A stretch of 64,000 bases of DNA, from the NCBI GenBank assembly GCA_015660865.1, contig JACTUA010000006.1, positions 1-64,000 on the forward strand. The letters run 5' to 3'. The notes below the pieces were generated by a model. It did no database searches. It was not told the DNA's origin and saw only the letters and a list, made by a program, of their open reading frames with translations. This document shows positions 29,053-58,521 of the stretch, one piece after another. How positions within the stretch are numbered: the first letter of the stretch is position 1; every line of letters begins with the position of its first letter. Source of the DNA: Methanomicrobiales archaeon. Its GTDB lineage: Archaea; Halobacteriota; Methanomicrobia; Methanomicrobiales; JACTUA01. Position numbers and translations under genes: made by a program.

Positions 29053-30186
29053 TCAATGCTGTATTTGATTTTTATATAATTTTGAGATGTCTGAGAACAC
29101 TTTAAGATATTGTTCCGAAATTATTTCCCAATCTAAGTTCGTAAGAGTATACATCCTTGCATTCTTTGCGTGATCCGAATGCCCCGACTTCAAATAATTC
29201 AAAATTTCATCTGCGGCCTTTTGAATCTCACTAAAACGAACAACAATCCCGCAATCAGCATCTTGTACCATCTCCAGGTTCGGAATATCTGATACAATAC
29301 AGGGTAAACCCGTTGACATCGCCTCCAGAAGTGTCAAAGGTGTACCTTCATACTTTGAAGTCATAATAAAGTAATCAGAGCACGCATATAGATCAGGAAG
29401 TTCTTGGTTGTCCACATGACCTAAGAATTTGATCTTTTGGATCCCCATCTTCTTTGCAAGTCTCTGGGTAGAATCAAGGAGTTCCCCTTTTCCGGCAATA
29501 CAGAGCATAATCTTATCCAATTGTTTTTCAAGAACAGAAAAAACCTCTAGCATCATGTGGGGCTGCTTTTGCGGAGTCAGTCGTCCGACGCTTAAAAGAA
29601 TTACATCCTCTTCAGGAATCCCAAACTTTTTTCGAATGATATTTTTATTTTCTGAAGGATGGAATTTTTTTATATCGACCCCATTGGGTATGTAAATGAT
29701 TCGGTCTTTATCGATTCCGATTTCCGAAAGTTCACTGCAAACCGGTTGCCCAACACCAGAAAAGATTGTCGAAGATTTCATCCGTAACAAACAATTCCGC
29801 TCAATCAACGCCACGAGTTTTTTATATATACGCAGATAGGCAGAACTGCCTACCTGGAAAAGCGATTCACCATAATATGTTGTATGAATTGTTACAAGAC
29901 TGTGGTGAAAAGGATTTGATATGGTAAAAAATGGATTGTGGAGCCATACTGCATCATAGTTATTTTTTTTAAAAAAACGAGAGACTTGATACCAAAAATA
30001 AAGGAGGCCTATAATCCCCATTTTTTGTATAAGAGAATGACTCCCCAACTGTATATCTGGACCATTTGGTGAACAAACTGTACAATCCACACCGTTTTGT
30101 TTGAGTACTTTGACCACATTATAAACTACGTTGGCAATACCTGAACCATGAGGATAATATTCAGAGGCGCAGACAAGCAATTTCAT
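29053..30186 (-). CDS. GT4 family glycosyltransferase
   Basis: A 377-aa GT-B enzyme. It begins KLLVCASEYYPHGSGIANVV with the acceptor-side Gly loop. The donor half holds LLSVGRLTPQKQPHMMLEVF, IAGKGELLDS, FLGHVDNQELPDLYA, and MTSKYEGTPLTLLEAMSTGL, the EGxPLxLLEAM nucleotide-sugar motif. The IYIPNGVDIKKFHP junction is typical. It is one of three adjacent GT4 genes on the same strand with gaps of 50-90 bp, probably one transcription unit. Its sugar specificity is unknown. Confidence 0.9.
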   Translation of the reverse strand: MKLLVCASEYYPHGSGIANVVYNVVKVLKQNGVDCTVCSPNGPDIQLGSHSLIQKMGIIGLLYFWYQVSRFFKKNNYDAVWLHNPFFTISNPFHHSLVTIHTTYYGESLFQVGSSAYLRIYKKLVALIERNCLLRMKSSTIFSGVGQPVCSELSEIGIDKDRIIYIPNGVDIKKFHPSENKNIIRKKFGIPEEDVILLSVGRLTPQKQPHMMLEVFSVLEKQLDKIMLCIAGKGELLDSTQRLAKKMGIQKIKFLGHVDNQELPDLYACSDYFIMTSKYEGTPLTLLEAMSTGLPCIVSDIPNLEMVQDADCGIVVRFSEIQKAADEILNYLKSGHSDHAKNARMYTLTNLDWEIISEQYLKVFSDISKLYKNQIQH

Positions 30187-30272
30187 TCAATTTTTCACAC
30201 AATGATTTGTTGAGTGATAGTTTTTTATGATTATTATGGCATCGATATTTATTTGAAGCAATGGTGACCATT

Positions 30273-31430
30273 TCAATGGCTATTTTTTTGGATTAAACGC
30301 GTATATAGATCTAAATATTCATCAATTATTTTATCCCAAGTGTAATTATTTATGACCTTCTCCTTCCCTGTTGATGATAATCGATTCGCCAATTCATTAT
30401 CCTTTAACAATCTTATTATTGCATCTGCCAGTGCCTGTTCGTCCTGTGGCGGAACAAGTAAAGAAGACTCGCTAAAGTGATCTTTAATTCCAGGAATATC
30501 TGAAGCAATAACGGGTAATCCAAAATAATATGCCTCAAGTATTACTGTTGGAAGCCCTTCAGACAATGAGGGTACAATTAACATTTTTGAGGATTTATAG
30601 GCTTTAATTAAATCAACAAAAGAAATTTTCTCTAAAAATATAACAGTGTCCTCCATTTTATACTCAATTATAGCTTTTCTTATTGTCTCAAGCTGATCTC
30701 CTGACCCAACAATTAATAATTTTACTTTGCTTCCTAATTCAATCGAATTTAATATTGAAAATGCTTTTATGAGATAAATTATTCCTTTTCTGGCGGATAA
30801 TTCACCAACAAACAAAATTGGAACCGTATTTTCAAGCTTATATTTTATTATAAAATCTGATGTATCAATGGTATTGTGATATGAAAAGTCTTCTACACAA
30901 ATCGCATTAGGAATCACTGAAATTCTATTCCTATCCATTCCAAATGATGCAATAAATTTTGCATCGGAATCTGAAAGAACTACTGCGTGATCTGCATTTT
31001 TCAATAACCAGGAAAATATAAGTTTTTCATACATTCTGACGATAAAATTCCGATAACGATCACCAAATTTCATCTGGCCATGATGTGTTAATATTAGTGG
31101 TTTATTATCAACTTTTTTTAGGATGTGCCCGAATATAGCTGCAGAACTATAAAGCAAATGAACCTGAATAAGATCGAATTTTTTTATCTCATCTTTATGA
31201 GGGAATATAAAAGCGGGCACAAGAGGATTCCTTAATGGTTCAGCAATACTAGTAAATCTTCGAATTTTTGTTCCATCAATAATTTCAATTTTTTTTGTTC
31301 GAGGGATGTTGGATGTATAAATTTCAACATCATGACCTTTTTTCACTAAATATTTACTCAAATTTCCAACATATCGTTCAATTCCCCCAGTATGGGGTAA
31401 AAAATATGGAGTGATTTGAAGGATTTTCAT
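30273..31430 (-). CDS. GT4 family glycosyltransferase
   Basis: A GT-B enzyme of about 385 aa starting MKILQITPYFLPHTGGIERY. The interdomain ISVIPNAICVEDF, the donor-side ILFVGELSARKGIIYLIKAF and IVPSLSEGLPTVILEAYYFG (EGLPTxxLEA motif) are all in place. An in-frame GTG lies two codons upstream of the ATG used here; GAGGTGA sits too close to the ATG to decide. The gene is AT-rich like its neighbours. It is separated from the GT2 gene before it by about 140 bp and may have its own promoter. Confidence 0.88.
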   Translation of the reverse strand: MKILQITPYFLPHTGGIERYVGNLSKYLVKKGHDVEIYTSNIPRTKKIEIIDGTKIRRFTSIAEPLRNPLVPAFIFPHKDEIKKFDLIQVHLLYSSAAIFGHILKKVDNKPLILTHHGQMKFGDRYRNFIVRMYEKLIFSWLLKNADHAVVLSDSDAKFIASFGMDRNRISVIPNAICVEDFSYHNTIDTSDFIIKYKLENTVPILFVGELSARKGIIYLIKAFSILNSIELGSKVKLLIVGSGDQLETIRKAIIEYKMEDTVIFLEKISFVDLIKAYKSSKMLIVPSLSEGLPTVILEAYYFGLPVIASDIPGIKDHFSESSLLVPPQDEQALADAIIRLLKDNELANRLSSTGKEKVINNYTWDKIIDEYLDLYTRLIQKNSH

Positions 31431-31570
31431 AATCACCTCAAAGTTTTCATGAACATGATAGAGGCACTCGAATATTCATAACGGTACGTTTTTTAATTAG
31501 TCAAGTCGTTCCGATGACGATCGCTATCATAGATACTCGTGATGGAACCCATCAATCTTGGTGACTTCCA

Positions 31571-33013
31571 TCATGATCCAGCTATCTTCTGCCGTTTCAG
31601 GATTTGTACCAGGGTATTCAGGATGAGACCCGATATGATGAGCAGCAGCCCGAGTAACAGGAAAATGCCGCTTATAAAAGACGGCCCGTAGGGGAGTTCC
31701 TTCGTCGAATAATATACTGAAAATGCAAAGAATCCGAATATCAGCCCGAGGGTTGTGGCAATTGCCCCGGATATCCCGAAGGTCATCATCGGTCGTTCGT
31801 ACCCGATGAGGTTGATGAGGCTTCCCAGGACCTCGAGGCCATGAGAAAGGGGGTTCTGGCTGGAAGTGCTGGGGACATCGTACCTGACCTTGATCGGGAT
31901 TTCGTGGACTTGAAAGGCATTCACTTGAATACATGAAAGGATCTCTGAACCTGCACTCATACCATGGTTATGGATCCTGATGGCCTGAATTGCTTTCCGC
32001 CCGTATGCACGGTATCCGCTCTGTGAATCGCTGATCTCTGTTCTGCTGGCAAAACTGGTGAATTTATCCAGCACCTTCATCCCGAAACGGCGATAGAGCG
32101 GAATATGAGAACTATTGGCGATGAAGCGTGATCCGATGACGATGTCAGCTTTTCTCTCCTTCAGGGACCTGAGGAAATCGGGGATATATTTCGGGTCGTG
32201 CTGGCCATCTCCGTCCATGATGATCAGGATATCGAAATCATTCTGCCGGGCGTACTCGAAGCATGATTTCAGGGCCGCCCCGTATCCCATATTTTCCGGG
32301 TGGGAGAGGACCTTTGCCCCTGCCCGCTGTGCAACGGCAACGGTATCGTCGGTACTCCCGTCATTGACCACGAGTATCTCGTTGACACAGGACTGGGCAC
32401 GTAATATCAGGGATCCGATGGTCAGGGTTTCATTGAAGCAGGGGATAGCAAGAAGAATCCTTTTATCCGGATCGTTATCCGGCGAATCCTTGAATATTTC
32501 AAGGACCGGCCGTGATATTGCGATATTCTTCTGGAGGGCTTCGATTAATTGCCGGTAATTCGAGGATATCTTCGTCTCCGAAACTGGGATGTTGGCCGGT
32601 AGATCCTTCTCGGTGAGAGGGGGCTTGATCCCGTCATCATGGGAGACCGGGCTCCTCACCTTTGTCAAATCAGCTCTTCCCCAGACGATAGGATCGATGA
32701 GTGACGGGATATACTTCGTATCATGTACGCTCGTTCCATCTATCACCGCAACGACATCCATTTTGTCCTCAATGGCTTTCACGAAGGCGGGTGTGAGGAG
32801 AAAATCACCATTCGTCTTTTCATGGGACCGGAGGAGGGAAATCCGTGGATTGCCGGAGATCACCCTGGAAAAATCGGCAACATCGGATGAATTGCCATTA
32901 CTCACAACATAGACATGATCGACATAGGGGGGTATCGACGAGATTATGTCACTGTTTATTGGTGTCCCGTTATGTGCAGGAAGTATTAGCCCAATCCGAT
33001 TACGGGAATACAT
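31571..33013 (-). CDS. GT2 glycosyltransferase with tandem GT-A domains and membrane tail
   Basis: A 480-aa protein. Residues 1-100 resemble a shortened first GT-A domain (RIGLILPAHNGTPINSDIIS ... VVAVIDGTS). The full GT2 domain follows (about 185-400): LLAIPCFNETLTIGSLI, EILVVNDGSTDDTVAVAQRA, the DxD site IIMDGDGQHDPKYIP, and then FTSFASRTEISDSQSGYRAY. Two C-terminal helices (about 410-465) anchor it. It resembles dolichol-phosphate sugar synthases (Dpm1/GtrB-like), which load a sugar on a polyprenyl lipid. It is higher in GC than the four GT4 genes downstream. The upstream edge borders a broken GT2 fragment. Confidence 0.83.
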   Translation of the reverse strand: MYSRNRIGLILPAHNGTPINSDIISSIPPYVDHVYVVSNGNSSDVADFSRVISGNPRISLLRSHEKTNGDFLLTPAFVKAIEDKMDVVAVIDGTSVHDTKYIPSLIDPIVWGRADLTKVRSPVSHDDGIKPPLTEKDLPANIPVSETKISSNYRQLIEALQKNIAISRPVLEIFKDSPDNDPDKRILLAIPCFNETLTIGSLILRAQSCVNEILVVNDGSTDDTVAVAQRAGAKVLSHPENMGYGAALKSCFEYARQNDFDILIIMDGDGQHDPKYIPDFLRSLKERKADIVIGSRFIANSSHIPLYRRFGMKVLDKFTSFASRTEISDSQSGYRAYGRKAIQAIRIHNHGMSAGSEILSCIQVNAFQVHEIPIKVRYDVPSTSSQNPLSHGLEVLGSLINLIGYERPMMTFGISGAIATTLGLIFGFFAFSVYYSTKELPYGPSFISGIFLLLGLLLIISGLILNTLVQILKRQKIAGS

Positions 33014-43893: not shown

Positions 43894-44949
43894 ATGACAT
43901 CTGAGACATGGTGGGAGAAGATCAGCAAATCCTCTACTCAATTGCCAACTCGTGTACCGATACCTCGAGAGCATGTGGATGTAGGAGAGAAGTTGGGAAC
44001 TATCAAGCCCAATGAGCACTACTTCCAGGTACTCATCAACGAAATATACCTGGCAAATTATAGAGAGTGGTTCTCAACCTACGATCCGATGTTGTTCATA
44101 GTCTCTGAATTTAACTACGGTCAAAAAAAAGAAACTGTGCCGTATATTGTTGGCCCGAGTATGATCGAGAGTATGATTGAGAAGTATGGGCAGAAGGCCC
44201 CACCAGGAATGATTTTTTCGGACACCCGGGTCACAGGTTTGCATCCCTATCGTGGAGATGGTTTAACCCTCTCCCTGATATTATTCCAAATAAAACGAGA
44301 TGCTTATCCCCGGAAATTCATGCAGATATTTGAAAACGCTGCGAAAGTTTTAGACTTTACCACCATGCTCAGCACATACGTGAAAGTGGCTGGTATCGTG
44401 CTTGATGGGGTGGAATCAATGCTTAATAAAACCGATGTACAGCCGCTCATTGGTTTACGCAAGGAATTTCCTAGTGATGTATTTGAATCGCAGTATTTTG
44501 CATTGGTCAATATGCCTGAGTCCAAGTTCAATCCCAATGAACTATGGGTTCGTAATGGGCAGCTCGTTCACGGTGATAACCTTCCGGATGCCAAACCCTA
44601 CCGTGATTCTGACTACGTGCTTTTCAGCATTAATCGAACATCTGAAAGAGATGATGTGGAAACTCTTCCCTTTTATCCACTTTGGAATCGTGTAGTAGAA
44701 GAAGCTAGGGTCGCAAAGGAAGATAACTGGGAAAGCGCAAAAACTGCCATGTCAAACCTGTACCTGGCCATGAGGCTCAGCCCGGATATAACCGAAAGTC
44801 ATGCGGAAGCATTAGCAGACGATTACATTACTAAAATGCAGGCCATACAAACAACGGCATGCAAGATTGCGAAATTGGGTGATGTAAAAACGAAGCCTTC
44901 CGAATTGGATGGCATAAGGGCCAAATCTCTCTCAATACTTAAGATGTAA
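43894..44949 (+). CDS. Unknown 351-aa protein, first gene of the CHAT/FlhA-C operon
   Basis: I do not recognise this family. It is soluble, with no signal peptide or clear transmembrane helix. The N-terminal 140 residues alternate short strands (MLFIVSEFNYG, TVPYIVGPSM, LTLSLILFQI) and contain the compact segment GLHPYRGDGLTLSLILFQIK. A helical part follows (about 142-190: RKFMQIFENAAKVLDFTTML then STYVKVAGIVLDGVES), mildly amphipathic. The rest is mixed, with a helical C-terminal 70 residues. It lies 34 bp before a CHAT protease gene in one operon. In such systems the first gene is often the protease's target or effector; that is a guess. AT-rich codon use marks it, like the whole operon, as likely acquired. 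Confidence 0.7.
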   Translation: MTSETWWEKISKSSTQLPTRVPIPREHVDVGEKLGTIKPNEHYFQVLINEIYLANYREWFSTYDPMLFIVSEFNYGQKKETVPYIVGPSMIESMIEKYGQKAPPGMIFSDTRVTGLHPYRGDGLTLSLILFQIKRDAYPRKFMQIFENAAKVLDFTTMLSTYVKVAGIVLDGVESMLNKTDVQPLIGLRKEFPSDVFESQYFALVNMPESKFNPNELWVRNGQLVHGDNLPDAKPYRDSDYVLFSINRTSERDDVETLPFYPLWNRVVEEARVAKEDNWESAKTAMSNLYLAMRLSPDITESHAEALADDYITKMQAIQTTACKIAKLGDVKTKPSELDGIRAKSLSILKM

Positions 44950-44983
44950 AGAACCAGAGGGATGGTGACACAAAGGCAGGGCG

Positions 44984-46492
44984 ATGAAGATGAAATATAT
45001 CGATTGCACACTGACCATTCGTGATAATAAGAATATAGAATATGTGGATCATTACAAACGTGATGCTCTTGGAGAAATAAGAATAGATGACCTCACGCTG
45101 AAGACAATCAAAAGATTAAAACATTGGGTGGATCGTGATGAACATTGTAATCGACAAGATCTAGAAATTTTAGGAGAGCAGCTCTATAATCTTATATTCA
45201 GCACTGTTAATCCCGAAAAGAAAATGACAGTAAGAGAAGCTTTTGAGAGAACTTTCGATGTGTTTGAGGAAGAGAAACAGAAGGGTTCTGATCAGCGCCT
45301 GAGGTTGTTTCTCGTCTTCCATAAAGAGGCAGTGGATTGGGCTTCATACCCATGGGAGTTTCTCTTCATGCCCCGTAATGCTGAAGGGTTTTTCCTAGCT
45401 GAGAAAAAAACTGATCTCATCCTAACTCGGTTTGTGCCTGAAGTTGTCATTAAGGATCGGAAGCCTGACTTACCTCTCAAAATTTTAATCGCATTTTCTC
45501 ATCCTCGGGATTTGCCACGTATTGTAGTTGATGATTTTATAAAAGCCATGGAAGCTCTAAAGTCAAAAGATATTGATGTCAAACTTTTAGAAAACCCCTC
45601 CCAATCTCAGCTTAAAAATGAAATGGATGAAGATGGGTTTAAGCCGGACATCCTGCACTTTATCGGCCATGGGAAACCTGGATTTATTGCTCTTAACAAG
45701 GAAGAGGAGCAGCTAAAAGTAGAAAGGAAGTTGAAAAAGAGCAACGAGGAGGTAAAGGATTATTTTTGGATTGATAACAAGACAGTGGTCGAGCTTTTCA
45801 GAGTTCATCATCCCTATTTCGTCTTTTTGCATGCCTGCAAAGGGGCCGAGCAAGATTCGTGGGACAGTTTTAAGGATACCGCGAGAGAGTTAGTCCATTC
45901 CAAGATACCGGTTGTAGTGGCGATGCAGTATGAGATCTCGGAAAATGATGCGAGTATTTTTGCTATAAAGTTTTACCAACAGATTAGTATAGGCAAATGT
46001 ATAGACGAAGCCGTAAGCGAGGCACGCTATGCATTAGGCACCATTGTCGGCCGGCAAGCTTGGGATGATCGTAGTTTCGGTACTCCTGTCGTCTACTTAC
46101 AGTCGGGAAGTGAAACCCCACTTTTTGAACCCAGAAAGCAAGATGGTGAAATCGAGGATACTGTCCGATGTCCTTATTTTTACTATCCCCCTCCCGATAA
46201 TTGTACTGGAAGCGTGCCTAAGAAATTATCACCTCGGGACAAAGCCTGCAGTGCATGTGGGCGGGAAATTATGGAATGTCCGGCTTGCCACCAAGTAATG
46301 GCTAAAAAACGGGGGTTTTGCAGTTGCGGATATAAACTGAGTGAGATCCCGGCCAGAGAAGACAGCAAGCAAATAGATCGGACAAAAGATAAAGAATATG
46401 AATTAGGTGCTAAAGGGGCAGGATTAACTCAGCCTCAGAATGGTATGTTGAAACAGCCCTCCACAAGTGAGAAATCTGCCAAAAGCAGGTAG
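44984..46492 (+). CDS. CHAT cysteine protease with C-terminal zinc-ribbon array
   Basis: A 502-aa protein of the CHAT (caspase HetF-associated with TPRs) peptidase clan. The catalytic dyad is visible: His229 in LHFIGHGKPGF and Cys285 in FVFLHACKGAEQ. The final strand region VPVVVAMQYEISENDASIF-like and RSFGTPVVYLQSG is also typical. Residues 1-160 are a divergent N-terminal domain with WASYPWEFLF. After residue 395 come eight Cys (396, 407, 422, 425, 432, 435, 446, 448) in CxxC and CxC pairs, forming one or two zinc ribbons that may bind a partner or nucleic acid. The tail is disordered. It would cut a specific protein on activation. TPR scaffolds typical for CHAT proteins are in the next gene. 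Confidence 0.88.
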   Translation: MKMKYIDCTLTIRDNKNIEYVDHYKRDALGEIRIDDLTLKTIKRLKHWVDRDEHCNRQDLEILGEQLYNLIFSTVNPEKKMTVREAFERTFDVFEEEKQKGSDQRLRLFLVFHKEAVDWASYPWEFLFMPRNAEGFFLAEKKTDLILTRFVPEVVIKDRKPDLPLKILIAFSHPRDLPRIVVDDFIKAMEALKSKDIDVKLLENPSQSQLKNEMDEDGFKPDILHFIGHGKPGFIALNKEEEQLKVERKLKKSNEEVKDYFWIDNKTVVELFRVHHPYFVFLHACKGAEQDSWDSFKDTARELVHSKIPVVVAMQYEISENDASIFAIKFYQQISIGKCIDEAVSEARYALGTIVGRQAWDDRSFGTPVVYLQSGSETPLFEPRKQDGEIEDTVRCPYFYYPPPDNCTGSVPKKLSPRDKACSACGREIMECPACHQVMAKKRGFCSCGYKLSEIPAREDSKQIDRTKDKEYELGAKGAGLTQPQNGMLKQPSTSEKSAKSR

Positions 46493-46497
46493 AGTTT

Positions 46498-49194
46498 ATG
46501 GCAATTTCCGATGAATTTATTCAATTAATTGCACAGGTGTATTATGAAGCGGCATTGCAAAATGCAGACATGCGAGACGTGACAGAAGCGCTAGAAACCA
46601 TTCGCTCCGCTATTGTAAAGAGAGAGAATAAATTTAAAATATGGGATTCGATTGACCAGTATATCGGACAGGCAGAGAATGAGAGCTTTCGGAAGGTATT
46701 TATTGAATTCCGCAGTCGTTTTCGACAGCAATTTCTAACGAACGAGACTGTTCGCTTGCGTGAGGCGTTTAGCACCAGCCCTGATGAGGGGTGGATAGAA
46801 TGGTTGCGAGCCTATGCCGAGGCTTTTTCCTTTGGGCGATTAAAATGTTGTCTGAAACTTTCTGAAGAGCACTTTCCATTTCAGGCTGATGTCGCACCGG
46901 TAGTAGAGAGAATCCGCCAGTCAACACGATATGCGGTACATGATCGATGGCCAGAAGTGTATGACACTATTATCTACCTTGCAGATCAAGAGTGTATCCC
47001 CAAATCGCTGCGTACCAGCCTGCTTGTTGTAGCTGCTGAGATTCAACTTTATTATTTTTATAAGCTGGATGATGCGAAGGATTTGTTGAAACGCGGCGAG
47101 GAACTTGACCCAGGGAATAGCAGGGTCATTTGTGGCTTTGGAAAGTACTCGTTGCAACAAAACGAATTTGATAAAGTCAAAGAGTATTCCCAAGAAGCCA
47201 TCAGCCGGGACCCACTCCTAACAACGAGTTATACATTAATGGGTGACTCGTATGATCGGCAGAATAAGCTTGATAATGCTGAGGAATGGTATCGCAAAGC
47301 TATAAGTAAAAAAAGCGGCGATTCGGATGGATACCTTGGGCTGTTGCGCCTTTATGGGCGTCCTGAGATGTTTGCAGCCCATGAAGCGGACCTAATGCCT
47401 CTTCTTAATCGAGCCATTTCTGTAGACCCAGCAAGAGAATACAATGCGTATATTGATATGGGTCACATTTACCAGCAAAATCGGCAATATCCGAAAGGTC
47501 ACGACTGGTACGATAGAGCTATCAAGCTTGATGGTACTCGCATTGGAGGCTATACCAGTAAAGGGTATTCATATTTGGAAGAGAAAAACTACGACGGGGC
47601 ATGCGACTCCTTTCAAAGGGCCATCAAATTAGCCCCTGAAGCATTCGATGGCTACTGGGGAATGGCTTGGCTCTATGAGCGGAAGGGGTCATTGGAGGAC
47701 GCTTTGCAGTGGTACGAGCTAAGTCTGCCAAAACGGCCAAACTGGGAAGGGATTATCCGAGGCAAGATAGGCGAAATTAAATTGAAGCAAGGGAAATATG
47801 AAGAAGCTCGAGAGGAGATTGCATTAGCATATCAAGTTGATAAGAATGAAGATGTATATCGAAGGACGATGGCAACTATTTTCAATGCTGAGGGTAACGA
47901 GTGTTACTCTCAAACTGATTATGGCAAAGCCATTGAAAAATATGAGAGAGCAATAGAATTTAATCCAAAAGATGAAATTTTTCACTCTAATCTTGCTGGC
48001 GCCTGGGAAAAGCTCAGTGATCCTGGAAAAAAGGTTGATGCCCTTGGCAATGCGATATCAGCTTTACAGCAGGCTCATGAGCTGAATCCAGATGACCGTG
48101 ATTATATCGAAAAGATCTCCAGATTGCAGAGAAAGAAGAGCATAGCGGAGCATTTTGGCGAAAAAGCTCTCGATAGATTCCTCGTTGTAACCCCAATTGC
48201 AGTTGAGGTCGCCGGCAACCTGATACCTTGCGTGGAATCAGAAACTGAATCAGGACTGCATCCGACTTTAAATCGCTTAATCGGTATAATGCGTAAAGAC
48301 ATCAACAATACAAGCGGAATTAGTATCCCTGGTATAAGGTTCCGGGGTAATGAAGACCTTCCAGCTGGTACTTACAATATTATCATGAATGAGATTCCTC
48401 TCGTCAGTGGAACTATTTTGGAGGAGAAGAGATTATTCCCAGGTCCCATGGCAAATTTGACACCATTGGGTGTTTTCGGAGAGGAGACAGATAATCCTTT
48501 AACGGGAGATAAAGCAGTTTGGATCAAACGAGAGGACTGGAAAAAAGTGGAACTATCGAAGCAAGCCCTTTGGGAAGTTATCGAGTACATGGTACGACAC
48601 CTGGAGGCTGTTATTCGAAGAAACTTGGACGAGTTCTTCGGTCATCAAGAGATTATGACTAAATTATCTCCCTATGATGATATTTACAAGAATATGCAGG
48701 ATACTCCGGCAGATCTTACTGCATGTACCATGGTTATGAAAGGTTTATTAAACGAGGGCGTGCCAATTATCGAGTTCGAAAAACTCGTCGAAAGATTCAA
48801 TGAGTCAAGGAAGGATAAAAAGAATCTTTTAACCATTATCGATACGATTCGTTCCCTGCCTGAAGTCAAAACAACATTACCAGGGAATAATGATCAATAT
48901 TCTTTTTATCGGCTCGGGCAGCGATTTGAAGAAGAGGTTAAAAAGTCTGTATCCATTGAGGATTACCTGCCTTTCTTGGCCACAAAACCATTAATTATTC
49001 AGAAGGCCCTTACAGCCGTGAGACGGAAGATCGGATCTAACCGGAATGTGGCCCTGTTCGTTGAAAATGCAGAATTAAGACCATTCGTCAGACAATTGAT
49101 CGAGATTGAGTTTCCGCTTGTTCCCGTTTTATCCAGAATGGAGTTGCTACCGGATCTTGAAGGTAAAATAACAGGGGAGATTGAATTGGAGTAA
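46498..49194 (+). CDS. TPR protein with C-terminal FlhA/SctV cytoplasmic-like domain
   Basis: An 898-aa soluble protein. Residues 1-150 are helical. Residues 170-545 form about nine TPR units (e.g. TSYTLMGDSYDRQNKLDNAE, GYTSKGYSYLEEKNYDGACD, GYWGMAWLYERKGSLEDALQ). From about 560 the sequence follows the FHIPEP (FlhA/SctV) cytoplasmic domain: TPIAVEVAGNLIPCVE, LNRLIGIMRKDINNTSGISI, PGIRFRGNEDLPAGTYNIIM, a KAVWIKREDW segment, VRHLEAVIRRNLDEFFGHQE, and the later GVPIIEFEKLVERFNESR. In export machines this domain forms a nonameric ring that docks chaperones. Here no membrane part exists. It starts five bases after the CHAT stop. A role as scaffold or sensor of the protease is inferred. Confidence 0.83.
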   Translation: MAISDEFIQLIAQVYYEAALQNADMRDVTEALETIRSAIVKRENKFKIWDSIDQYIGQAENESFRKVFIEFRSRFRQQFLTNETVRLREAFSTSPDEGWIEWLRAYAEAFSFGRLKCCLKLSEEHFPFQADVAPVVERIRQSTRYAVHDRWPEVYDTIIYLADQECIPKSLRTSLLVVAAEIQLYYFYKLDDAKDLLKRGEELDPGNSRVICGFGKYSLQQNEFDKVKEYSQEAISRDPLLTTSYTLMGDSYDRQNKLDNAEEWYRKAISKKSGDSDGYLGLLRLYGRPEMFAAHEADLMPLLNRAISVDPAREYNAYIDMGHIYQQNRQYPKGHDWYDRAIKLDGTRIGGYTSKGYSYLEEKNYDGACDSFQRAIKLAPEAFDGYWGMAWLYERKGSLEDALQWYELSLPKRPNWEGIIRGKIGEIKLKQGKYEEAREEIALAYQVDKNEDVYRRTMATIFNAEGNECYSQTDYGKAIEKYERAIEFNPKDEIFHSNLAGAWEKLSDPGKKVDALGNAISALQQAHELNPDDRDYIEKISRLQRKKSIAEHFGEKALDRFLVVTPIAVEVAGNLIPCVESETESGLHPTLNRLIGIMRKDINNTSGISIPGIRFRGNEDLPAGTYNIIMNEIPLVSGTILEEKRLFPGPMANLTPLGVFGEETDNPLTGDKAVWIKREDWKKVELSKQALWEVIEYMVRHLEAVIRRNLDEFFGHQEIMTKLSPYDDIYKNMQDTPADLTACTMVMKGLLNEGVPIIEFEKLVERFNESRKDKKNLLTIIDTIRSLPEVKTTLPGNNDQYSFYRLGQRFEEEVKKSVSIEDYLPFLATKPLIIQKALTAVRRKIGSNRNVALFVENAELRPFVRQLIEIEFPLVPVLSRMELLPDLEGKITGEIELE

Positions 49195-50828
49195 TGGAGG
49201 GGGAGTTCGAAAACATGGAAGGAATACCAGATATTTTGGGACAAGGAAAAGTCGTTGTTGAATTGACTCCTTCACTGGAACGCTTTACCGATCCAGAAAG
49301 TAGTGATAGTAATGCCTTGAAACAATATCTTCTGCAACTGCTGAATGATCTCATAGCGGATCTTAGGATTCCCGTAGAAATCTCATTACACGTAAAACTC
49401 GGTGACGACAAAAATAGGTTTGGTATAAACTCCTATCAGGTATCCGTTAACGATAGTAAATGCAGGTTACAACTCCCAACTATCTTGGGTCAAGATGTGC
49501 AAGCCAAAGAACTGGCCGGATCTATAGTAAAGGTCATTCATCAAAATCGCGATTTGTTCATCACGATACCATTAGCTGAGAAGATTCGGAAGGAGTGGTC
49601 ATCTGTTAGTGGTGAAACGGATTTGATGGTTTGGCCAGAGAAAGGTTTTCCCGAATTTCTATCGGAGCTCGTTCGTCGTGGATTCAGGATTGATCGAGGG
49701 AAGGCAATTGTTCAGAAATCTAAAGATACGGGGCAAAATATATGGAGCGCTGAGGAATGTTTTGAAGAAGCGGTTTCCGGATTTGATACAACAATAAAAG
49801 TTTTCTTCAACCAGGAGGGTGCAAAAATACAGTCCCCAGCCGACAAAAACTCACTCGAAGAGATGTTTGACCTTATGCAGGACGGCCTCTTTTATGAGTT
49901 AGGGATTATCCTTCCAGGGGTGAAGATCGATACTGATGAGAGCTTGGACGAGAATGAATTCAGAATACAACTGAATGATCTCCGATCTCCACCCGATCAA
50001 GGTCCTGCACAAGATGAGTTTTTGGTGAATGATACATCTGATAGACTGTTCCTCTTAAATTTAACCGGCAAAAAGGCCGTGAATCCTGCAAATGGGACTG
50101 AAGGCGCTCTTGTTCAAGATAGAAATACAGCCTTAAAAATATGTGAAAAAGCAGGGTTGACTTCGTGGGGACCGGCCGGCTTTGTCATCCTTGCACTCAG
50201 TTCTAATGTCAGGAGAAATGCTGGTAACTTCCTGACAACTGAGATCCTCAAATTCAGTCTGGATCGGCTGAATGAGGCTTTTCCTGATCTTGTGGACACA
50301 ACGCTGAAGCGTTTTGATGAAGTGATACTGACCCGGATTTTGAGAGATTTGTTAGATGAAGAGCTCTCCATCAGGGATCTTCGAGGGATCCTCGAAGCGT
50401 TGCTAGAAGTCAGTGGTTCATCCATCGATGATCAGAGTAAAAATCTAGTGTCCTCCCCCCATATTCTCAGCTTATTGCGGAAATCCCTTGATCGATATAT
50501 TTCAAATAAATGTAAAACCAGAGACAACACCTTGGTTGTATATCTTTTAGATAAACTGATAGAGAAGAGAATTATGCAGGAACGGTTATTGAACGATGAA
50601 GAACGTGATCGATTGATAAAAGCTTTCTTCGGCGAGTTTGGAGTTTTGCCTGTAGCATCCCAAAATCCAATTATCTTGACAACTTTAGGGGTTAGAAAAA
50701 AGCTCAAGAATCTAATTGAAAAAGAATTTCCCAGAATTTTTGTGTTGTGCTATCAGGAACTTGGGCCCGATTTAAATATTCAACCGATCGCTCGAATTAC
50801 ATGGGACAGAAGAATTGGAGCTATGTAA
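49194..50828 (+). CDS. Second FlhA-C-like protein
   Basis: A 544-aa soluble protein. From about residue 225 it resembles the FHIPEP cytoplasmic domain: LMQDGLFYELGIILPGVKID, ENEFRIQLNDL, then KRFDEVILTRILRDLLDEEL with SIRDLRGILEALLEVSGSSI (the best-conserved FlhA stretch), LRKSLDRYISNK and VRKKLKNLIEKEFPRIFVLC. The first 120 residues (LLQLLNDLIADLRIPVEISL ... NSYQVSVND) may be a partial duplicate of the same subdomain. The start overlaps the previous stop as TAATG. A GGAGGGGGAG inside would serve an alternative ATG at 49215. It lacks TPRs and membrane helices. Hetero-ring formation with the previous product is a natural guess. Confidence 0.8.
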   Translation: MEGEFENMEGIPDILGQGKVVVELTPSLERFTDPESSDSNALKQYLLQLLNDLIADLRIPVEISLHVKLGDDKNRFGINSYQVSVNDSKCRLQLPTILGQDVQAKELAGSIVKVIHQNRDLFITIPLAEKIRKEWSSVSGETDLMVWPEKGFPEFLSELVRRGFRIDRGKAIVQKSKDTGQNIWSAEECFEEAVSGFDTTIKVFFNQEGAKIQSPADKNSLEEMFDLMQDGLFYELGIILPGVKIDTDESLDENEFRIQLNDLRSPPDQGPAQDEFLVNDTSDRLFLLNLTGKKAVNPANGTEGALVQDRNTALKICEKAGLTSWGPAGFVILALSSNVRRNAGNFLTTEILKFSLDRLNEAFPDLVDTTLKRFDEVILTRILRDLLDEELSIRDLRGILEALLEVSGSSIDDQSKNLVSSPHILSLLRKSLDRYISNKCKTRDNTLVVYLLDKLIEKRIMQERLLNDEERDRLIKAFFGEFGVLPVASQNPIILTTLGVRKKLKNLIEKEFPRIFVLCYQELGPDLNIQPIARITWDRRIGAM

Positions 50829-51296
50829 ATGGAAACAGCAGCCGCTCGTTATTTAGAGTTTATGGTAAATGACTACTATAATCGCCTCATGGCTTTGCTG
50901 GATTTAGAAGATCTTAGCGACGAGGATTTGGAGACGCTCTACGCCCTTGGATACAACTTTTTCACCTACGGTAAATACCAAGCTGCCAAAGACATTTTCG
51001 TCCGTCTGACGGCCATTGCTCCCTACACAGCTTTCTATTGGCGTGCCCTTGGAGCGGTGAACCAACAGATGAAAAACTACGCTGAAGCGATTGCTGCTTA
51101 CAATATGGCCATCGCCAATGATGAGGCGGACATTGTAAGTTACGTTTATCGGGGTGAGTCGCAGATTCTGTCAGGGAACATTGAGGCAGCTTTAAAAGAT
51201 TTCGAGAAGGTTTTAAAGATCGGAGCTAATGATTCACAGACAGAACCTTGGGTGAAGCGCGCTCATTTACTTATTAATATACATAAACAATCCTAA
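50829..51296 (+). CDS. SycD/LcrH-like small TPR chaperone
   Basis: A 155-aa protein with three tandem TPRs: ETLYALGYNFFTYGKYQAAK (about 37-56), AFYWRALGAVNQQMKNYAEA (71-90) and SYVYRGESQILSGNIEAALK (105-124). The order, the LEDLSDEDLETLYALGYN lead-in and the GKYQAAKDIFVRLTAIAPYT spacing match class II type III secretion chaperones (SycD, LcrH, SicA, PcrH), which bind translocators and dock on SctV/FlhA. The ATG follows the previous stop codon directly, with TTGGAG upstream, so it is coupled. Beside two FlhA-C-like proteins, the chaperone resemblance is unlikely to be chance. Confidence 0.8.
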   Translation: METAAARYLEFMVNDYYNRLMALLDLEDLSDEDLETLYALGYNFFTYGKYQAAKDIFVRLTAIAPYTAFYWRALGAVNQQMKNYAEAIAAYNMAIANDEADIVSYVYRGESQILSGNIEAALKDFEKVLKIGANDSQTEPWVKRAHLLINIHKQS

Positions 51297-52044
51297 CGTT
51301 TGAGTATTATTCAGTTCAAATTGCTGAAAAAACACAATTTGGATTTAATTTTTTTAAAAAATTATAAAAATCTCGCCCTTCCTCTAATCTAAAAAAGAAT
51401 AAAGTAAATCACCGACTGCAAAAAAAAGAACAGTCCACATTACCCTCAATCTGGAAAATACACAGCCAATTGTGTGTTATTTAAAAAAATGCATTACCAC
51501 TTGAATTAGCAGGTGTTGGCACGGGTTGTTAATCCTGCCAGAGCTTAGCAGATTATCGTCATTATCACAGGATGAGATCAGTTCTCACATTTATGATGGT
51601 AAGTCCCTCGGGAAGACCATAGGTTAATTCATCTGGAAAAACAGGTTTAGAATTATTTGATGTAGAGTAAAATATCATCTCCGACACAGATAGTATCCGA
51701 GGAATGGGAAACTGATATTTCAAGAAAATCGAACATATTAGCCGAACTTCCTCCCCTATGAATCACCACGTATCGATTAAAAATATAGAAAGTGTTGCAG
51801 AACCTGTCGAAACCTTTATGAATGATATTGGTTCTTTCTACCAAGTAGGGATTCCGGATAAAGGCGCTATTCAGCCATACAGTTCAACCCATCTGGTTGG
51901 TCATTCAGTCATCCAGTGGGGTCTTATCAGGATTACCGGCCTCATAACTCTCATCACCCCCGGAATTCGAGCGGGAAGAATCTGATTATCCTTGGAGCCC
52001 GAGATCAACAGACATAAAAGTGGAACGAAGTGAGGTTGCTCGTT
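51297..52044. other. 750-bp gap after the CHAT operon
   Basis: The first 70 bp hold T-rich tracts (around 51345-51370) suited to ending the operon's transcript. On the minus strand at 51570-51845 two overlapping frames read as protein (GGSSANMFDFLEISVSHSSD and, one base shifted, SKPVFPDELTYGLPEGLTII). They look like a frameshifted gene remnant, family unknown. ACATAAAAGT at about 52011-52020 is a possible promoter for the next gene. Confidence 0.4.
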
Positions 52045-53187
52045 ATGGACGTTGAAATCCGCCAGAATGTAGGTGTGAGAAACCCGTATGCCCTCATGGC
52101 CCTGAAGAGTTCATTGAAGAAGGGCTGGTGGAGGGCGAAGAGCCTTGAGGATGCGAAGAAAGATTTTCAGAAGAAGTTCAACAAGCCCTTCGAGAAACTC
52201 TTTGATCCTATCAACGACTCCCCTCTATACCATGGACTTCCCGGGGTATTCGGCACTGCTGTCCAAGCCCACGTTGGGGCAAAGACGGACTGTACAAATC
52301 TCCTCTCTGCATGGAAGAGAAGGGATGAATGGATCTACTACAATCCCACCCTGGACTGGTTTGATCCTATCCAGGGTTGCGTTGCGAACTGCTTCCTGAT
52401 ATCTGCCCTCTCCTCCCTTGCCTGGGTCTGTCCCGGCCTCATGCCCAGGGTTACAGGGAGGGACTCGAACAATGTCCCCTTCGACCAGTATAAATTCTAC
52501 CCTTCCGGTGGCGCTCAACCCACCTCTGTCACGGTCACGGAGCAGCTCCCGGTGAATGCGAACGAAGAGCTGGTCTATGCAACATCCTATACCCAGAACG
52601 AGATCTGGCCATCGGTATACGAGAAGGCGTATGCGAAATTCTGGGGATGCCCGGTCATAGATGGGGATGGAGACAAGCCGGACATCTCCCAGATGTGCTC
52701 CGGGAACCCCCTCACCGCCCTGGTCAATCTCACCGGCCTGGGAGCTGTTGCTCACCTTACTCAGGAGTTTAACTCGGGCAGTGATCTTTTCGTCGCTTTG
52801 AGCAGTCTCACCGAAGGGTCCAAGTGCAAATTCCCCATGGTCGGGTGGACCCACCCGACCGCTCCAGATGGGAGCGGCATCTCTTTTACAAGCGATCAGA
52901 TCGTGGCGAACCATTCCTACTCCATCCTTGGAACCTATATCGATCCGGCAACGAGCAAGAAGTGTATCGTCCTCCGAAACCCCTTCGGCCCCAACATGGG
53001 AGACCCGAACGTTCCCGGAGTACTATCAGGGACCTGGACATACAACCTTGCCTACTTCAGACAGGGGGGGGTAAGAATTACAATCCCGGTGAAAAGAACC
53101 CTTGATCTCACCTTAGCCGATGGAGTCTTTGCATTCGACTCAGATGAATTCATCAAATACTTCGAGGCCTTCGGGTACGTCACATGA
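52045..53187 (+). CDS. Calpain-like cysteine protease (family C2)
   Basis: A 380-aa cytoplasmic-type cysteine protease. The triad fits calpains: Cys116 in DPIQGCVANCFLISALSSLA (calpain QGxxGDCWLLAAIASL), His290 in VANHSYSILG, and Asn312 in VLRNPFG. The segment EIWPSVYEKAYAKFWG is the calpain WPxLLEKAYAK motif. There is no signal peptide and no C2L or EF-hand domain. The ATG at 52045 is preferred over a GTG at 52030 since GTGAGGT serves as its ribosome site. Its stop overlaps the next start (ATGA), coupling it to a huge exported propeller protein. Archaeal calpains are rare; the substrate may be that partner or a cytoplasmic protein. Confidence 0.9.
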   Translation: MDVEIRQNVGVRNPYALMALKSSLKKGWWRAKSLEDAKKDFQKKFNKPFEKLFDPINDSPLYHGLPGVFGTAVQAHVGAKTDCTNLLSAWKRRDEWIYYNPTLDWFDPIQGCVANCFLISALSSLAWVCPGLMPRVTGRDSNNVPFDQYKFYPSGGAQPTSVTVTEQLPVNANEELVYATSYTQNEIWPSVYEKAYAKFWGCPVIDGDGDKPDISQMCSGNPLTALVNLTGLGAVAHLTQEFNSGSDLFVALSSLTEGSKCKFPMVGWTHPTAPDGSGISFTSDQIVANHSYSILGTYIDPATSKKCIVLRNPFGPNMGDPNVPGVLSGTWTYNLAYFRQGGVRITIPVKRTLDLTLADGVFAFDSDEFIKYFEAFGYVT

Positions 53188-56100
53188 GCATTTCCTGCTC
53201 TCCAGGAAAGACGAGAAGTGCCATGCTCATGCAACGAGGAGGACTGGAGGTGCATATCGCGCGCTTCATCCTCCTCTTTATTCTCTTATCTTTTGTTCTA
53301 TTCTCTCCTTCAGAGGCGCATGAGTGCCTCATCACCGTCAATACCTCAGGATCGGATCAAATCGCACCTGCCATCTCCGGGGATCTCATCGCTTGGCAGG
53401 ATTACCGCAATGGAAATCCCGATATCTATCTCTACGATATTGCCACCGGGAAAGAGACCCGGATAACCCAAGATTCTTTTGAGCATACCTTACCTGCCAT
53501 CAGCGGATCCCTCGTTGCATGGGAAGAGAACCTTGGCATCGCATTCCTTCGGCTTCCCAACCTCGTCGAGGCTCCGCTGGCATCAAGCGGATTTACCCCG
53601 GCGACCTATGGTGACATGGTTGTCTGGGCCGACACTCGAGACGGAGATTCACATATTTACCTGTATAATACCACCGAAGGAGAGGAGGCCCCCATCACCA
53701 GCGAACCCGGTCTGCAGCAGATAAACCCGGCCGTCGGAGAATATGGCATTGTCTGGTTGAATACCTCAATAGACCCTGTCACTTATTTATACGGACCGGC
53801 CGATCTCTACTTCAATGCCACCCCTTCGGGTAGTGCACTTGGGTTCACCAACGGTTCCATCGTTACCGGGACAGCCAGCCCAATGTCTCCCCCGGCTATA
53901 TCCAGGAATCGCATCGCGTGGGCTGATAACCGGAACGGGGTCTCCGAGATCTATCTCTATGATCTTACATCAGGGATGGAGACGAAGATAACAGCGGATC
54001 AAGCAGAACAGATTGCCCCTTCCATCGACGGGACACGGGTCGCCTGGGTGAATACCTCTGACTCTGCAATATACCTCGGCCTGAACATGGCAGGCCTCGC
54101 CTCCCCCCGGTCGGTCATCGGTTCCGGGGGCGTGAACGACCTCCCGAGGATCTCCTCGGACCGGGTGGTATGGCAGAAGTATGCCGGAGGCCACTACGAC
54201 ATCTACCTCCATACCATCAACTCCCCGGAACCCTGTCCTGTTGCCACTTTTATGGCAAATGCAACCTCCGGTATGGCCCCCCTTGCGGTCCAGTTCAGTG
54301 ACATCTCGGGAGACCCGAATACAACCCACTGGTCCTGGGAGTTCGGCGATGGGACCACCGCCGATGGGCAGAACCCGGTCCACACCTATGGGACCGATGG
54401 CACCTACTCCGTCTCTCTCACGGTGAGCAACATGGTGGGGAGGGATTACACCACAAGAACAGATTATATCAGGGTCGGGCCTGTCCCTATCGTATCCTTC
54501 TTGGCGAACCAGACCTATGGGATCGCACCTCTTCCCGTTCAGTTCACCGATACCTCGTCCGGAAATCCAACCAGCTGGTCGTGGGACTTCGGTGACGGGA
54601 ATACCTCCTCGGCCCAGAATCCGATCTACACGTATCCGAAATGGGGAAACTACACCGTGAGCCTCGCTGCGACGAATATCAACGGGACCGGCACGGCGAG
54701 CATGCCGGGTCTCATCCAGGTTCTCAACGGGACCAGCCTCACTGCAACCACGGCTATCGATGGACTCCAGGGCGCTACTCTTGGCAGCAGGGATGTGGTC
54801 ACCCTGGACACCACGGAGAATCCCGGTTATACTTTTGACCCGAACAGCCCCTCCTCCTTCTCCTTCACCCCTCCGGCTTCGAGCGGCTGGCAGAGGATCA
54901 CCTTCTCCTCAACGGACGGGATCGGCTTTGCGAGAGATGCCAGCGGGAACATCACGGGAAACTATACTTCATGCACCCTTGAGAGCCGGGAGATTGTCCC
55001 CACCACCTTCGGGACAGGCGTCGGAAACAACCTCCCCATATCCTACCAGCTCCAGCTCGCCACATACCCCCTCCTCGGCGAGGTGAATGCGACCATATGG
55101 GAGGGGGTGATGAATGCCGATAAATATCCATTCTGGCATACCCTCGTTACCACGAGCACGCAGTTCACGAGCATCATGGCCACGGCATATACCCTTAATT
55201 TTACCACGAACATCACGGGTGCGACAGCGACCCTAAACCTCTCCGTAAGTTCGGATTGGGTTACAAGGAACGGAAACCAGAACAACATCACCGTCATCCG
55301 GCTCGGCGATGATCTGGTGAACCAGACCCTGAACCCCTCCGCCACCTTCACCGATACCGCGAACAACCTCGATTACTTTGTCATCCCATCACCGAACGGC
55401 CTCTCGAGGTTCGCCCTCGTCTCTGCCACAGGCTCCTCCAACCTGATCCAGATAGGGACCAGGCTTGCCACCCAGCTGATCCAAGGCTCGGGTATCGGGT
55501 ATACCAGCGGCGGATCCTCCGGGGGGGAGGCCCCTCCCCAGGAGAAGCCCCCACAGCCGGCGAAGGCGCCGGCCGAACGCCCGGCGGCGACATTTTACGG
55601 GGAGGGGAAAATCGACACCACCCCTGCAGGCATCGTCCGGGACCCTGTCATCATCACCTCCACTGACCATGGCGCAAGCCTCGCCATCGATGCAGGGACA
55701 GCGGCCTTTGACAGCATGCACGTGCCCCTTACCCTTGCCACCGCAAGGGCGGTCACAACCGGGTCGATCCCGGCGATGCCCGGGGGGGCAGGCATCCAGT
55801 TCACGGGGATGGCGTATGATATCGGGCCTGACGGTGCCACCTTCAACCCGCCTGCCACCATCAGCTTCACCGTTCCAGACAACCTGTGGGACACGAACAC
55901 TCAGTACGCTATCCGCAGCTACTCAACAAAGACCGGATCCTGGGATGGCATTTCCACGATGGCGGATCCCGGTACCCGGACCGTGAGCGGCCAGGTCTCC
56001 CACCTCTGCCTCTTCGGGCTCTTCACCGCTCCCCTGGCTGGTCCCGCAACCCCGGCTCCCCCCGTCAGGGCCTCAGCCGGACTGCCCCAAGCACAGCCAA

Positions 56101-56462
56101 AGCCCCTCCCGCGGACCCCCATGGGCACCTTCACCGGCTTGCTGGGATGGATCTATGCCGCTGCCATATCGAATATTCCGGTCTCCTTCACCATCGTTCT
56201 CTCGGGCCTTGCTGCCATCTATGCCTCCACCCGGAGGGCATGGCTCTCCCGGAACCGGACATGGATCACCCTCTACCTCATCAGCCTGACCGGCCTCCTC
56301 TGGGCGCTCTTCCTCGCCGCCTCTGATGGCCCGCCGTGGGAGTCGGCCTGGATCCTCATCACCGTCACCGGGCTGAACCTTATCGTCCATATTCTCCGGT
56401 TCGATCGGATCGATCTCTCCTCCCGTGCCCGTCGCGGCTATGTCGAGATTGGACGCCGCTGA
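53184..56462 (+). CDS. Giant surface protein: TolB-like propeller, two PKD domains, C-terminal helices
   Basis: A 1092-aa protein. A signal peptide (about residues 25-47) precedes a six-bladed TolB-like propeller (50-350) with blades like PDIYLYDIATGKETRIT and SGDLIAWQDYRNGN. Two PKD domains follow (about 352-435 and 437-515; hallmarks WSWEFGDGTT and WSWDFGDGNT). A long β-rich region with NxT sites (520-770) and a second module (800-940, ending VSHLCLFGLF) precede three transmembrane helices (about 975-1070) and a short basic tail. It overlaps the calpain gene by 4 bp. The propeller is closely like that of the protein at 3310. It is probably an adhesion or envelope protein; why it is coupled to a protease is unknown. 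Confidence 0.85.
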   Translation: MSISCSPGKTRSAMLMQRGGLEVHIARFILLFILLSFVLFSPSEAHECLITVNTSGSDQIAPAISGDLIAWQDYRNGNPDIYLYDIATGKETRITQDSFEHTLPAISGSLVAWEENLGIAFLRLPNLVEAPLASSGFTPATYGDMVVWADTRDGDSHIYLYNTTEGEEAPITSEPGLQQINPAVGEYGIVWLNTSIDPVTYLYGPADLYFNATPSGSALGFTNGSIVTGTASPMSPPAISRNRIAWADNRNGVSEIYLYDLTSGMETKITADQAEQIAPSIDGTRVAWVNTSDSAIYLGLNMAGLASPRSVIGSGGVNDLPRISSDRVVWQKYAGGHYDIYLHTINSPEPCPVATFMANATSGMAPLAVQFSDISGDPNTTHWSWEFGDGTTADGQNPVHTYGTDGTYSVSLTVSNMVGRDYTTRTDYIRVGPVPIVSFLANQTYGIAPLPVQFTDTSSGNPTSWSWDFGDGNTSSAQNPIYTYPKWGNYTVSLAATNINGTGTASMPGLIQVLNGTSLTATTAIDGLQGATLGSRDVVTLDTTENPGYTFDPNSPSSFSFTPPASSGWQRITFSSTDGIGFARDASGNITGNYTSCTLESREIVPTTFGTGVGNNLPISYQLQLATYPLLGEVNATIWEGVMNADKYPFWHTLVTTSTQFTSIMATAYTLNFTTNITGATATLNLSVSSDWVTRNGNQNNITVIRLGDDLVNQTLNPSATFTDTANNLDYFVIPSPNGLSRFALVSATGSSNLIQIGTRLATQLIQGSGIGYTSGGSSGGEAPPQEKPPQPAKAPAERPAATFYGEGKIDTTPAGIVRDPVIITSTDHGASLAIDAGTAAFDSMHVPLTLATARAVTTGSIPAMPGGAGIQFTGMAYDIGPDGATFNPPATISFTVPDNLWDTNTQYAIRSYSTKTGSWDGISTMADPGTRTVSGQVSHLCLFGLFTAPLAGPATPAPPVRASAGLPQAQPKPLPRTPMGTFTGLLGWIYAAAISNIPVSFTIVLSGLAAIYASTRRAWLSRNRTWITLYLISLTGLLWALFLAASDGPPWESAWILITVTGLNLIVHILRFDRIDLSSRARRGYVEIGRR

Positions 56463-57561: not shown

Positions 57562-58521
57562 ATGAATCTCTCTTCGATCTTCCGGCCCGGGACCCCCGAT
57601 ATCGACGCAATGAAGAGCCGAAGGGATATCCCGGGCCTGATCGCAGCTCTCCGGCACCAGGATACCGATACCCAGTGGAAGGCTGCAGCAGCCCTCGGCT
57701 CCCTCGGCCCGGATGCCATCAGCCACCTGATCAGGGGGCTCGCGACCAGGAACAGGGCGGCGAAGCTCGGGATCATCGAGGCCCTCGGGGAGATCCGGGA
57801 CCCCCAGGCAGTCGAACCCCTCATAAAGAACCTCCGGGACCCGAGCGCGGAGGTCAGGTGGGAGGCTGCCCTTGCCCTCGGGGAGATCCGGGATGAACGG
57901 GCGATCGGCCCCCTCCTTCCCTGCCTCCGGGACCCGGATCGCTACGTCCGCTACGGGGCTGCCCTTGCCCTCCCGAAGCTGGGGTGGAAGCCGGCGAACG
58001 ATGAGGAGCAGGCCTACCGGCTCCTCGGCCTCCAGGACTGGCCAGGGCTAGCTGCCCTCGGGCCTTCGGCTATACCTGCCCTCAGCTTCGCCCTGAAGGA
58101 CCGGGAGAGGACGGTGCGGAGGAGGGCGGTGGAGATCCTCGGCGAGATCGGGGATACAGGGGCGATCCCGGCGATCATCCGCGCCCTCCGGGACCCCGAT
58201 GACGGGGTGCGCTGGCGTGCCGTCCTGGCAGGGCCGAGGTGCGGGATTGCTCCCATGCACCTCCCCCGCAGCCTCTCGCAGCGCCCCCGGGTGAGGAAGA
58301 CCCCCTCTGTCGCAGCCCTCCTGAACCTCATCCTCCCGGGGCAGGGCTACCTCTACCTCGGGCGGTGGTGGGGGGTCCTCGTCTTCCAGGTCGACATCAC
58401 CGCGACCCTCTGGCTCTTTGCCACGGTGGGGGACCAGCCCACCTACGGCCTCCTCCTCCCCCTCTACGTCATCCTCGCCGCCCATGCATGGTACCTGGCC
58501 GGAAGGATGCCCGAGATGTGA
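57562..58521 (+). CDS. HEAT-repeat protein with membrane segment, paralogue of the previous gene
   Basis: A 319-aa protein aligned with its neighbour from end to end: DTDTQWKAAAALGSLGPDAI, VRWEAALALGEIRDERAIGP, YVRYGAALALPKLGWKP, RCGIAPMHLPRSLSQRP and AALLNLILPGQGYLYLGRWW. A GGGAGGT ribosome site precedes the ATG. Tandem duplication made the pair; they have since diverged by many substitutions, so it is not recent. They probably form a hetero-complex in the membrane. Confidence 0.82.
   Translation: MNLSSIFRPGTPDIDAMKSRRDIPGLIAALRHQDTDTQWKAAAALGSLGPDAISHLIRGLATRNRAAKLGIIEALGEIRDPQAVEPLIKNLRDPSAEVRWEAALALGEIRDERAIGPLLPCLRDPDRYVRYGAALALPKLGWKPANDEEQAYRLLGLQDWPGLAALGPSAIPALSFALKDRERTVRRRAVEILGEIGDTGAIPAIIRALRDPDDGVRWRAVLAGPRCGIAPMHLPRSLSQRPRVRKTPSVAALLNLILPGQGYLYLGRWWGVLVFQVDITATLWLFATVGDQPTYGLLLPLYVILAAHAWYLAGRMPEM

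Follow-up and report, generated by a model that had tools for sequence, protein, structure and literature searches.

A pair of soluble SctV/FlhA-type cytoplasmic domains encoded in a CHAT-protease operon of an archaeon

The AT-rich island and its five genes

The window, by which we mean the whole 64,000-nt stretch of DNA analysed from a Methanomicrobiales archaeon, contains an AT-rich island whose five genes, here called P1 to P5, are summarized in Table 1. Spacing from P1 through P5 is 34, 5, -1, and 0 nt. The GC content of the operon is 43.0% (GC3 0.40-0.47), compared with 60.1 +/- 4.0% for the host (8-kb pieces drawn from nine stretches elsewhere in its genome) and a GC3 of 0.83 for the neighbouring mutS. 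The host is archaeal, as indicated by an aCPSF1 equivalog match on contig 9 (7.7e-298), and its genome is 99% complete. Only weak, chance-like repeats were found when the island flanks were examined for repeats and att sites.

Table 1. Window positions of the island and its features, with the evidence for each
Feature	Positions	Strand	Evidence
Five-gene operon/AT-rich island	43894-51296	.	GC content and gene packing
P1, 351 aa, proposed effector/substrate of protease	43894-44949	+	Gene neighbourhood
P2, CHAT caspase-like protease, 502 aa	44984-46492	+	Pfam CHAT 3.4e-13
CHAT domain of P2, aa 63-350	45170-46033	+	Pfam, 50.1 bits (cut-off 24)
P3, 898 aa, TPR array and SctV-C/FlhA-C	46498-49194	+	ORF, Pfam
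TPR array of P3, about aa 190-535	47065-48102	+	Pfam TPR_2 8.1e-29 and other TPR models
P3-type FHIPEP cytoplasmic domain, SD1-SD4, aa 545-886	48130-49155	+	Pfam, PDB phmmer, Foldseek
P4, 544 aa	49194-50828	+	Start overlaps P3 stop by one base
N-terminal domain of P4, aa 1-190, no known family	49194-49763	+	50% identical in G1092
P4-type FHIPEP cytoplasmic domain, second soluble SctV-C	49764-50771	+	Pfam, NCBIfam, PDB phmmer
P5, 155 aa, TPR, SycD/LcrH-like chaperone	50829-51296	+	TIGR02552, PDB, N. vulgaris SycD

P1 matches no family in Pfam, NCBIfam, or PADLOC, and a P1 profile search of the PDB was empty. Its AlphaFold model (4-row alignment) has a pLDDT of 50, and Foldseek with this low-confidence model gave no match at E <= 0.001. 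A gasdermin fold for P1 was considered and drew no support, the model being too poor and the Foldseek output only pLGIC-like noise (E >= 0.025). The His/Cys dyad motifs of P2 (H229 in IGHG and C285 in HACKGA) are kept in two related loci, L008 and L010, described below; the P2 C-terminus has a weak double zinc ribbon match (0.025, under the Pfam cut-off). P5 matches the SycD/LcrH model TIGR02552 at 1.5e-29 (102.5 bits, slightly below the cut-off of 104.8) and PcrH in the PDB at 1.6e-10. It is 32% identical (4e-13) to SycD of the type III secretion system (T3SS) of Nitratidesulfovibrio vulgaris, in which small TPR chaperone genes adjoin sctV.

Several other features of the window may be mentioned. 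Just past the island, in a region of host-like GC (52030-56462, + strand), the gene for a calpain-family cysteine protease (Pfam 3e-20) overlaps by 4 bases that for a 1092-aa beta-propeller/PKD protein (TIGR04275, 1.8e-62). Another AT-rich stretch (22500-33000, 31-39% GC), likely a separate island, includes a polysaccharide flippase-type gene at 23099-24640 (Polysacc_synt_3, 1.2e-21). On the minus strand, a tightly packed operon of host-like GC (15135-21405) encodes a MoxR AAA ATPase (17704-18678), DUF58 (16381-17700), and DUF4350 (18686-19561) proteins. The product of 57562-58521 (+) resembles phycobilisome-degradation/lyase repeats (NblB and CpcE/F models, up to 9.6e-21) and in an archaeon probably consists of generic HEAT-like repeats.

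The SctV/FlhA cytoplasmic domains of P3 and P4

The Pfam FHIPEP model (PF00771) matches P3 at 4e-37 (128.5 bits, cut-off 29.1), and because the match is confined to profile positions 311-655 of 657, with positions 1-310 unmatched, P3 holds the cytoplasmic half of the family only. The NCBIfam models for FlhA (TIGR01398; 4.9e-32, 111 bits) and SctV (TIGR01399; 1.2e-28, 100 bits) also match, far under their curated cut-offs of 772 and 692 bits, since these are full-length models and P3 offers half a protein. In a phmmer search of the PDB, the cytoplasmic domains of YscV (7e-23), CdsV (4e-22), and FlhA (1e-13) were matched over the whole stretch; YscV 378-700 aligns to residues 41-354 of the P3 query stretch and includes SD3 and SD4, which are required for ring formation (PMC9163089). 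Hydropathy scans revealed no transmembrane (TM) helix in P3, where the sole segment above 1.6 falls in the soluble SD1 strand region, and none in P4; an ordinary SctV, used as control, gives seven TM segments.

These results bear on the original prediction, made from the DNA sequence without database searches, that a FlhA/SctV cytoplasmic-ring domain is fused to TPRs in an archaeal protein without the membrane part. All of the peptides that it quoted occur in the P3 reading frame in FHIPEP order, the TPRs and the archaeal host are confirmed, and the membrane half is absent both from P3 and from the rest of the genome. The proposed start at 48178 captures a real domain and loses its first residues, about 16 in number, the domain beginning at aa 545 (48130). 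Beyond that prediction, P3 is one of a pair, lies within a CHAT-protease operon, and has the SycD-like P5 nearby.

P4 matches the Pfam FHIPEP model at 4.7e-37 over profile positions 325-655 of 657. Among NCBIfam models it matches hrcV/SctV at 8.1e-40, with 137 bits for SctV TIGR01399 and 102 bits for FlhA TIGR01398, both below cut-off, and its best PDB match is CdsV (1.3e-34). The protein closes with the signature NIQPxxRI; by this signature of its partner and by the SycD-like neighbour, P3 stands nearer to SctV, the injectisome member, than to FlhA, which corrects the original prediction. Searches with the N-terminal domain of P4 gave no accepted match in the PDB or in plasmids, and a relative was found in one genome only (G1092, below). 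A weak match of this domain to EscV (0.15) is not believed. A narrow P4 scan of genome contigs gave no match, and the N-domain search in Verrucomicrobiota was blind, because the N-domain of the P4-type protein of G545 (an Opitutales MAG) sits beyond the contig end.

An AlphaFold model of the P3 domain (3-row alignment) has a pLDDT of 69 and a pTM of 0.45. The entire top 50 of its Foldseek matches consists of FlhA-C and SctV-C structures (best E 9.4e-18, probability 1.00, about 350 columns), with TM scores of just 0.30-0.39. The D1-D4 layout foreseen in the original prediction is thus upheld for fold and domain order; the relative placement of the domains is not modelled, and the shared geometry is not supported. 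Taken together with the profile matches, we regard it as virtually certain that P3 and P4 carry a true FlhA/SctV cytoplasmic domain.

Relatives and movement of the cassette

A PF00771 profile search of the entire genome found two partial FHIPEP genes only, P3 and P4. No match was found in 100 sampled relatives, one sub-threshold fragment excepted, in any of 232 genomes of the class, or in any of 394 in the phylum sample. Given this absence and the foreign base composition, the cassette was most likely acquired laterally by its archaeal host.

A scan with the P1 core over 85,000 species genomes returned three loci (L008, L009, and L010). Among nine distinct P1 loci, a protease gene adjoins the P1 homologue at eight (raw count), the exception being L005. 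The protease is of the CHAT family in the window, L008, L010, and L007, caspase-family in L004/L009, papain-like (C1 peptidase) in L006, and EAD8-trypsin in L080 and L081, making P1 an effector-like family common to CHAT, caspase, trypsin, and papain loci. The P1 locus of L004 also holds VMAP-C, MoxR, and STAND genes, and in L009 (Pseudanabaena) P1 has a STAND-type gene on one side and a caspase-like one on the other. Loci of the MoxR-vWA and STAND kinds have been described as predicted conflict systems (Kaur et al., PMC7159879; 2021 sequel, PMC8195603). A cyanobacterial cluster at L081:5410-11026 reads EAD8-trypsin, P1, EAD8, MoxR, vWA, which suggests that MoxR-vWA conflict systems include P1 as a component so far unrecognised.

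In the archaeon LFW-280_3_2 (L008), P1, the CHAT protein, and the TPR protein are 58%, 52%, and 52% identical to those of the window; the contig ends within the TPR gene, and a search of this genome found no FHIPEP. In the Opitutales MAG (L010) the gene order of the window recurs: P1, CHAT, and then a TPR-SctV-C protein of 1248 aa, whose SctV-C domain is 36% identical (Pfam 1.1e-35). A separate contig of this MAG starts inside a P4-type gene (41% identical), which is followed some 2 kb downstream by a papain-like peptidase gene (L014:522-1610, - strand; Pfam 3.7e-7). An archaeal genome of the same order as that of L008, G1092, encodes a 1518-aa TPR-SctV-C protein directly followed by a P4-type protein that is 51.5% identical to the window P4 over its length, N-domain included. 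No P1 was found in the G1092 genome and no CHAT gene adjoins the pair, whose neighbours are housekeeping genes (NMD3, an epimerase, and arginine decarboxylase). No P5 was seen beside P4 in G1092 or on the Opitutales contig. The G1092 P3-type protein (L070:9014-13570) has an N-terminal TM segment at aa 35-53, unrelated to the FlhA membrane domain, so that SctV-C may there be re-anchored.

The SctV-C pair was found in three genomes only: that of the window, the Opitutales MAG, and G1092. In a tree of SctV-C domains the P3-type and P4-type sequences each form one clade (support 100/100 each), apart from ordinary SctV and FlhA, and both clades branch alike across the three genomes, window with G1092 and then Opitutales. 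The deep joins among long branches are weak (79/70) and are not relied on. Sequence identity is 37-57% within types and 22-30% between the P3 and P4 types. The matching topologies indicate an ancient pair that travels as a unit, its two soluble types having arisen ahead of the split between these lineages. As a whole, this evidence makes a conserved, laterally moving SctV-C pair highly probable.

No relatives of P1, P3C, or P4 were found in the viral contigs searched, and phage records held only ordinary-looking SctV-type matches. The matches listed for a cyanobacterial PF00771 search include ordinary full-length FlhA; because this phylum-level group includes flagellated members, the search says little about soluble forms. 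Apart from those of G545, the Verrucomicrobiota FHIPEP proteins examined are frames of 690-880 aa, and those inspected start with hydrophobic helices. In the papers searched, FlhA and SctV appear solely as a gate anchored in the membrane, either of the flagellum or of the injectisome. No paper was found that joins FHIPEP with CHAT, and, judged by title and abstract, those on FHIPEP and archaea do not seem relevant.

Possible function and likeness to known systems

Bacterial gasdermin genes adjoin genes for caspase-like and other proteases (PMC9612521). Being, like gasdermins, the constant partner of unrelated protease classes, P1 is best read as a substrate or effector, and by this analogy and gene linkage it is reasonably probable that P1 is a protease substrate. 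In the T3SS, complexes of TPR chaperone and substrate dock in the SD2-SD4 cleft of the SctV cytoplasmic ring, and soluble YscV-C nonamers form in a concentration-dependent manner modulated by the TPR chaperone complex (PMC9163089). We propose that the SctV-C domains of P3 and P4 may form a ring, alone or mixed; that the TPR array of P3 and the SycD-like P5 would, by analogy with this docking, present or sense a client; that the CHAT protease P2 would be concentrated or switched on at the TPRs or ring; and that P2 would then cleave P1, the released P1 acting on the cell in defence or suicide. We infer each of these elements (ring formation, protease recruitment, P1 cleavage, and the defence role), and the whole chain, in which the SctV-C pair serves in the cytosol as a platform, controlled by a ligand, on which the CHAT protease assembles, is tentative and falls somewhat short of probable. 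Against it stand the occurrence of the pair in just three genomes, one of which (G1092) has it with neither P1 nor an adjacent CHAT gene; the lack of P5 beside P4 in two of them; the absence of a reliable fold match for P1; and the L008 locus, with its contig-cut TPR gene and no FHIPEP found. A more elaborate, inflammasome-like form, in which SctV-C hetero-rings on a TPR- or chaperone-borne signal activate CHAT and P1 is cleaved, in bacteria and archaea alike, with SctV-C taking the place of the STAND/MoxR NTPase hubs of related P1 loci, is more doubtful.

Alternatively, the pair could be a general scaffold for docking chaperones and clients, used in protein handling or trafficking, that lies beside a CHAT/P1 cassette by chance; clients would be delivered by its ring or its TPRs, with no control over the protease. 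G1092, with its pair amid housekeeping genes, an N-terminal TM segment in P3, no P1, and no adjacent CHAT, indicates that the pair need not work with a protease, and docking of chaperone-substrate complexes is the known job of the fold (PMC9163089). The conserved P1-CHAT-TPR/SctV-C order in the archaeon and the Opitutales MAG argues instead for joint working, and we consider this alternative possible without being probable.

CHAT and caspase-type proteases act in signalling too. The CHAT-P1 pair might accordingly be a signalling module (for example, one that switches a regulator by proteolysis) in which the SctV-C/TPR part serves as sensor and no killing is involved; P1 is like no known toxin, but it occurs in loci of the MoxR-vWA, EAD8-trypsin, and STAND kinds, which are characteristic of predicted conflict systems, and this makes the signalling reading unlikely. 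A recent, non-functional import whose reading frames are intact only through recency is less likely still: the foreign base composition and the isolation of this genome among 232 of its class would fit, but the five intact, tightly packed reading frames, the conserved catalytic motif, and the matching systems in two other genomes, at 36-57% identity, speak against it. Finally, a cryptic or stripped-down T3SS in an archaeon, which two SctV-C domains together with a SycD-like chaperone gene might suggest, is strongly disfavoured and very improbable: a genome-wide search gave just two FHIPEP matches, both partial, and no SctV/FlhA membrane half, TM helices are lacking in both P3 and P4, and the operon holds no other T3SS part.

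Reuse of the ring module outside a secretion system, implied by the original prediction, is supported by the genome-wide absence of the membrane half and by the recurrence of the architecture in two other genomes, and the putative role of the module as scaffold or receptor is plausible. If a conserved, protease-tied soluble pair is real in two domains of life, the ring would be a portable device whose own logic combines client docking with controlled oligomerisation. It would also offer a simple soluble system for studying SctV ring assembly, and would extend the prokaryotic protease-effector systems by a scaffold that lacks an NTPase domain.

Among known systems, the closest in fold is the SctV (YscV/LcrD, CdsV, InvA)/FlhA export gate, whose full SD1-SD4 set is likewise present in P3 and P4. 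The gate has an 8-helix membrane domain with the FHIPEP loop, in place of which P3 and P4 have TPRs or a novel N-domain; the cassette further differs in its archaeal host, its two adjacent paralogues, and its lack of any further T3SS gene. No SctR, SctS, SctT, SctU, or ATPase gene lies within the operon (the genome-wide search was for FHIPEP), and the cassette is not counted as a T3SS member because the defining membrane domain was tested for and is absent. The position of P5 directly after an SctV-C gene recalls the SctV-X-Y/SycD docking system and the TPR chaperone genes beside sctV in N. vulgaris; unlike that system, the operon has no SctX, translocator, or needle gene.

Craspase (TPR-CHAT, Csx29; PMC9729208) is a known case of a CHAT protease working with a TPR partner, a pairing also present in the cassette. 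In Craspase a single protein carries both TPR and CHAT and is accompanied by Cas7-11, whereas the cassette has separate genes and an SctV-C ring domain, and neither Cas7-11 nor CRISPR occurs in the operon. Bacterial gasdermin operons resemble it in that a small protein is encoded next to a protease, caspase-like or of another kind, as P1 is, with the difference that P1 matches no known profile in Pfam, NCBIfam, or PADLOC. Cyanobacterial P1 homologues adjoin the trypsin and caspase genes of the VMAP/MoxR-vWA/STAND systems (Kaur et al. 2020, 2021); unlike these conflict systems, the cassette has no MoxR, vWA, STAND, or EAD genes, and SctV-C would by analogy stand in for their NTPase hub. Protease-effector operons are thus a known kind, and the new element here is the SctV-C ring domain as scaffold.
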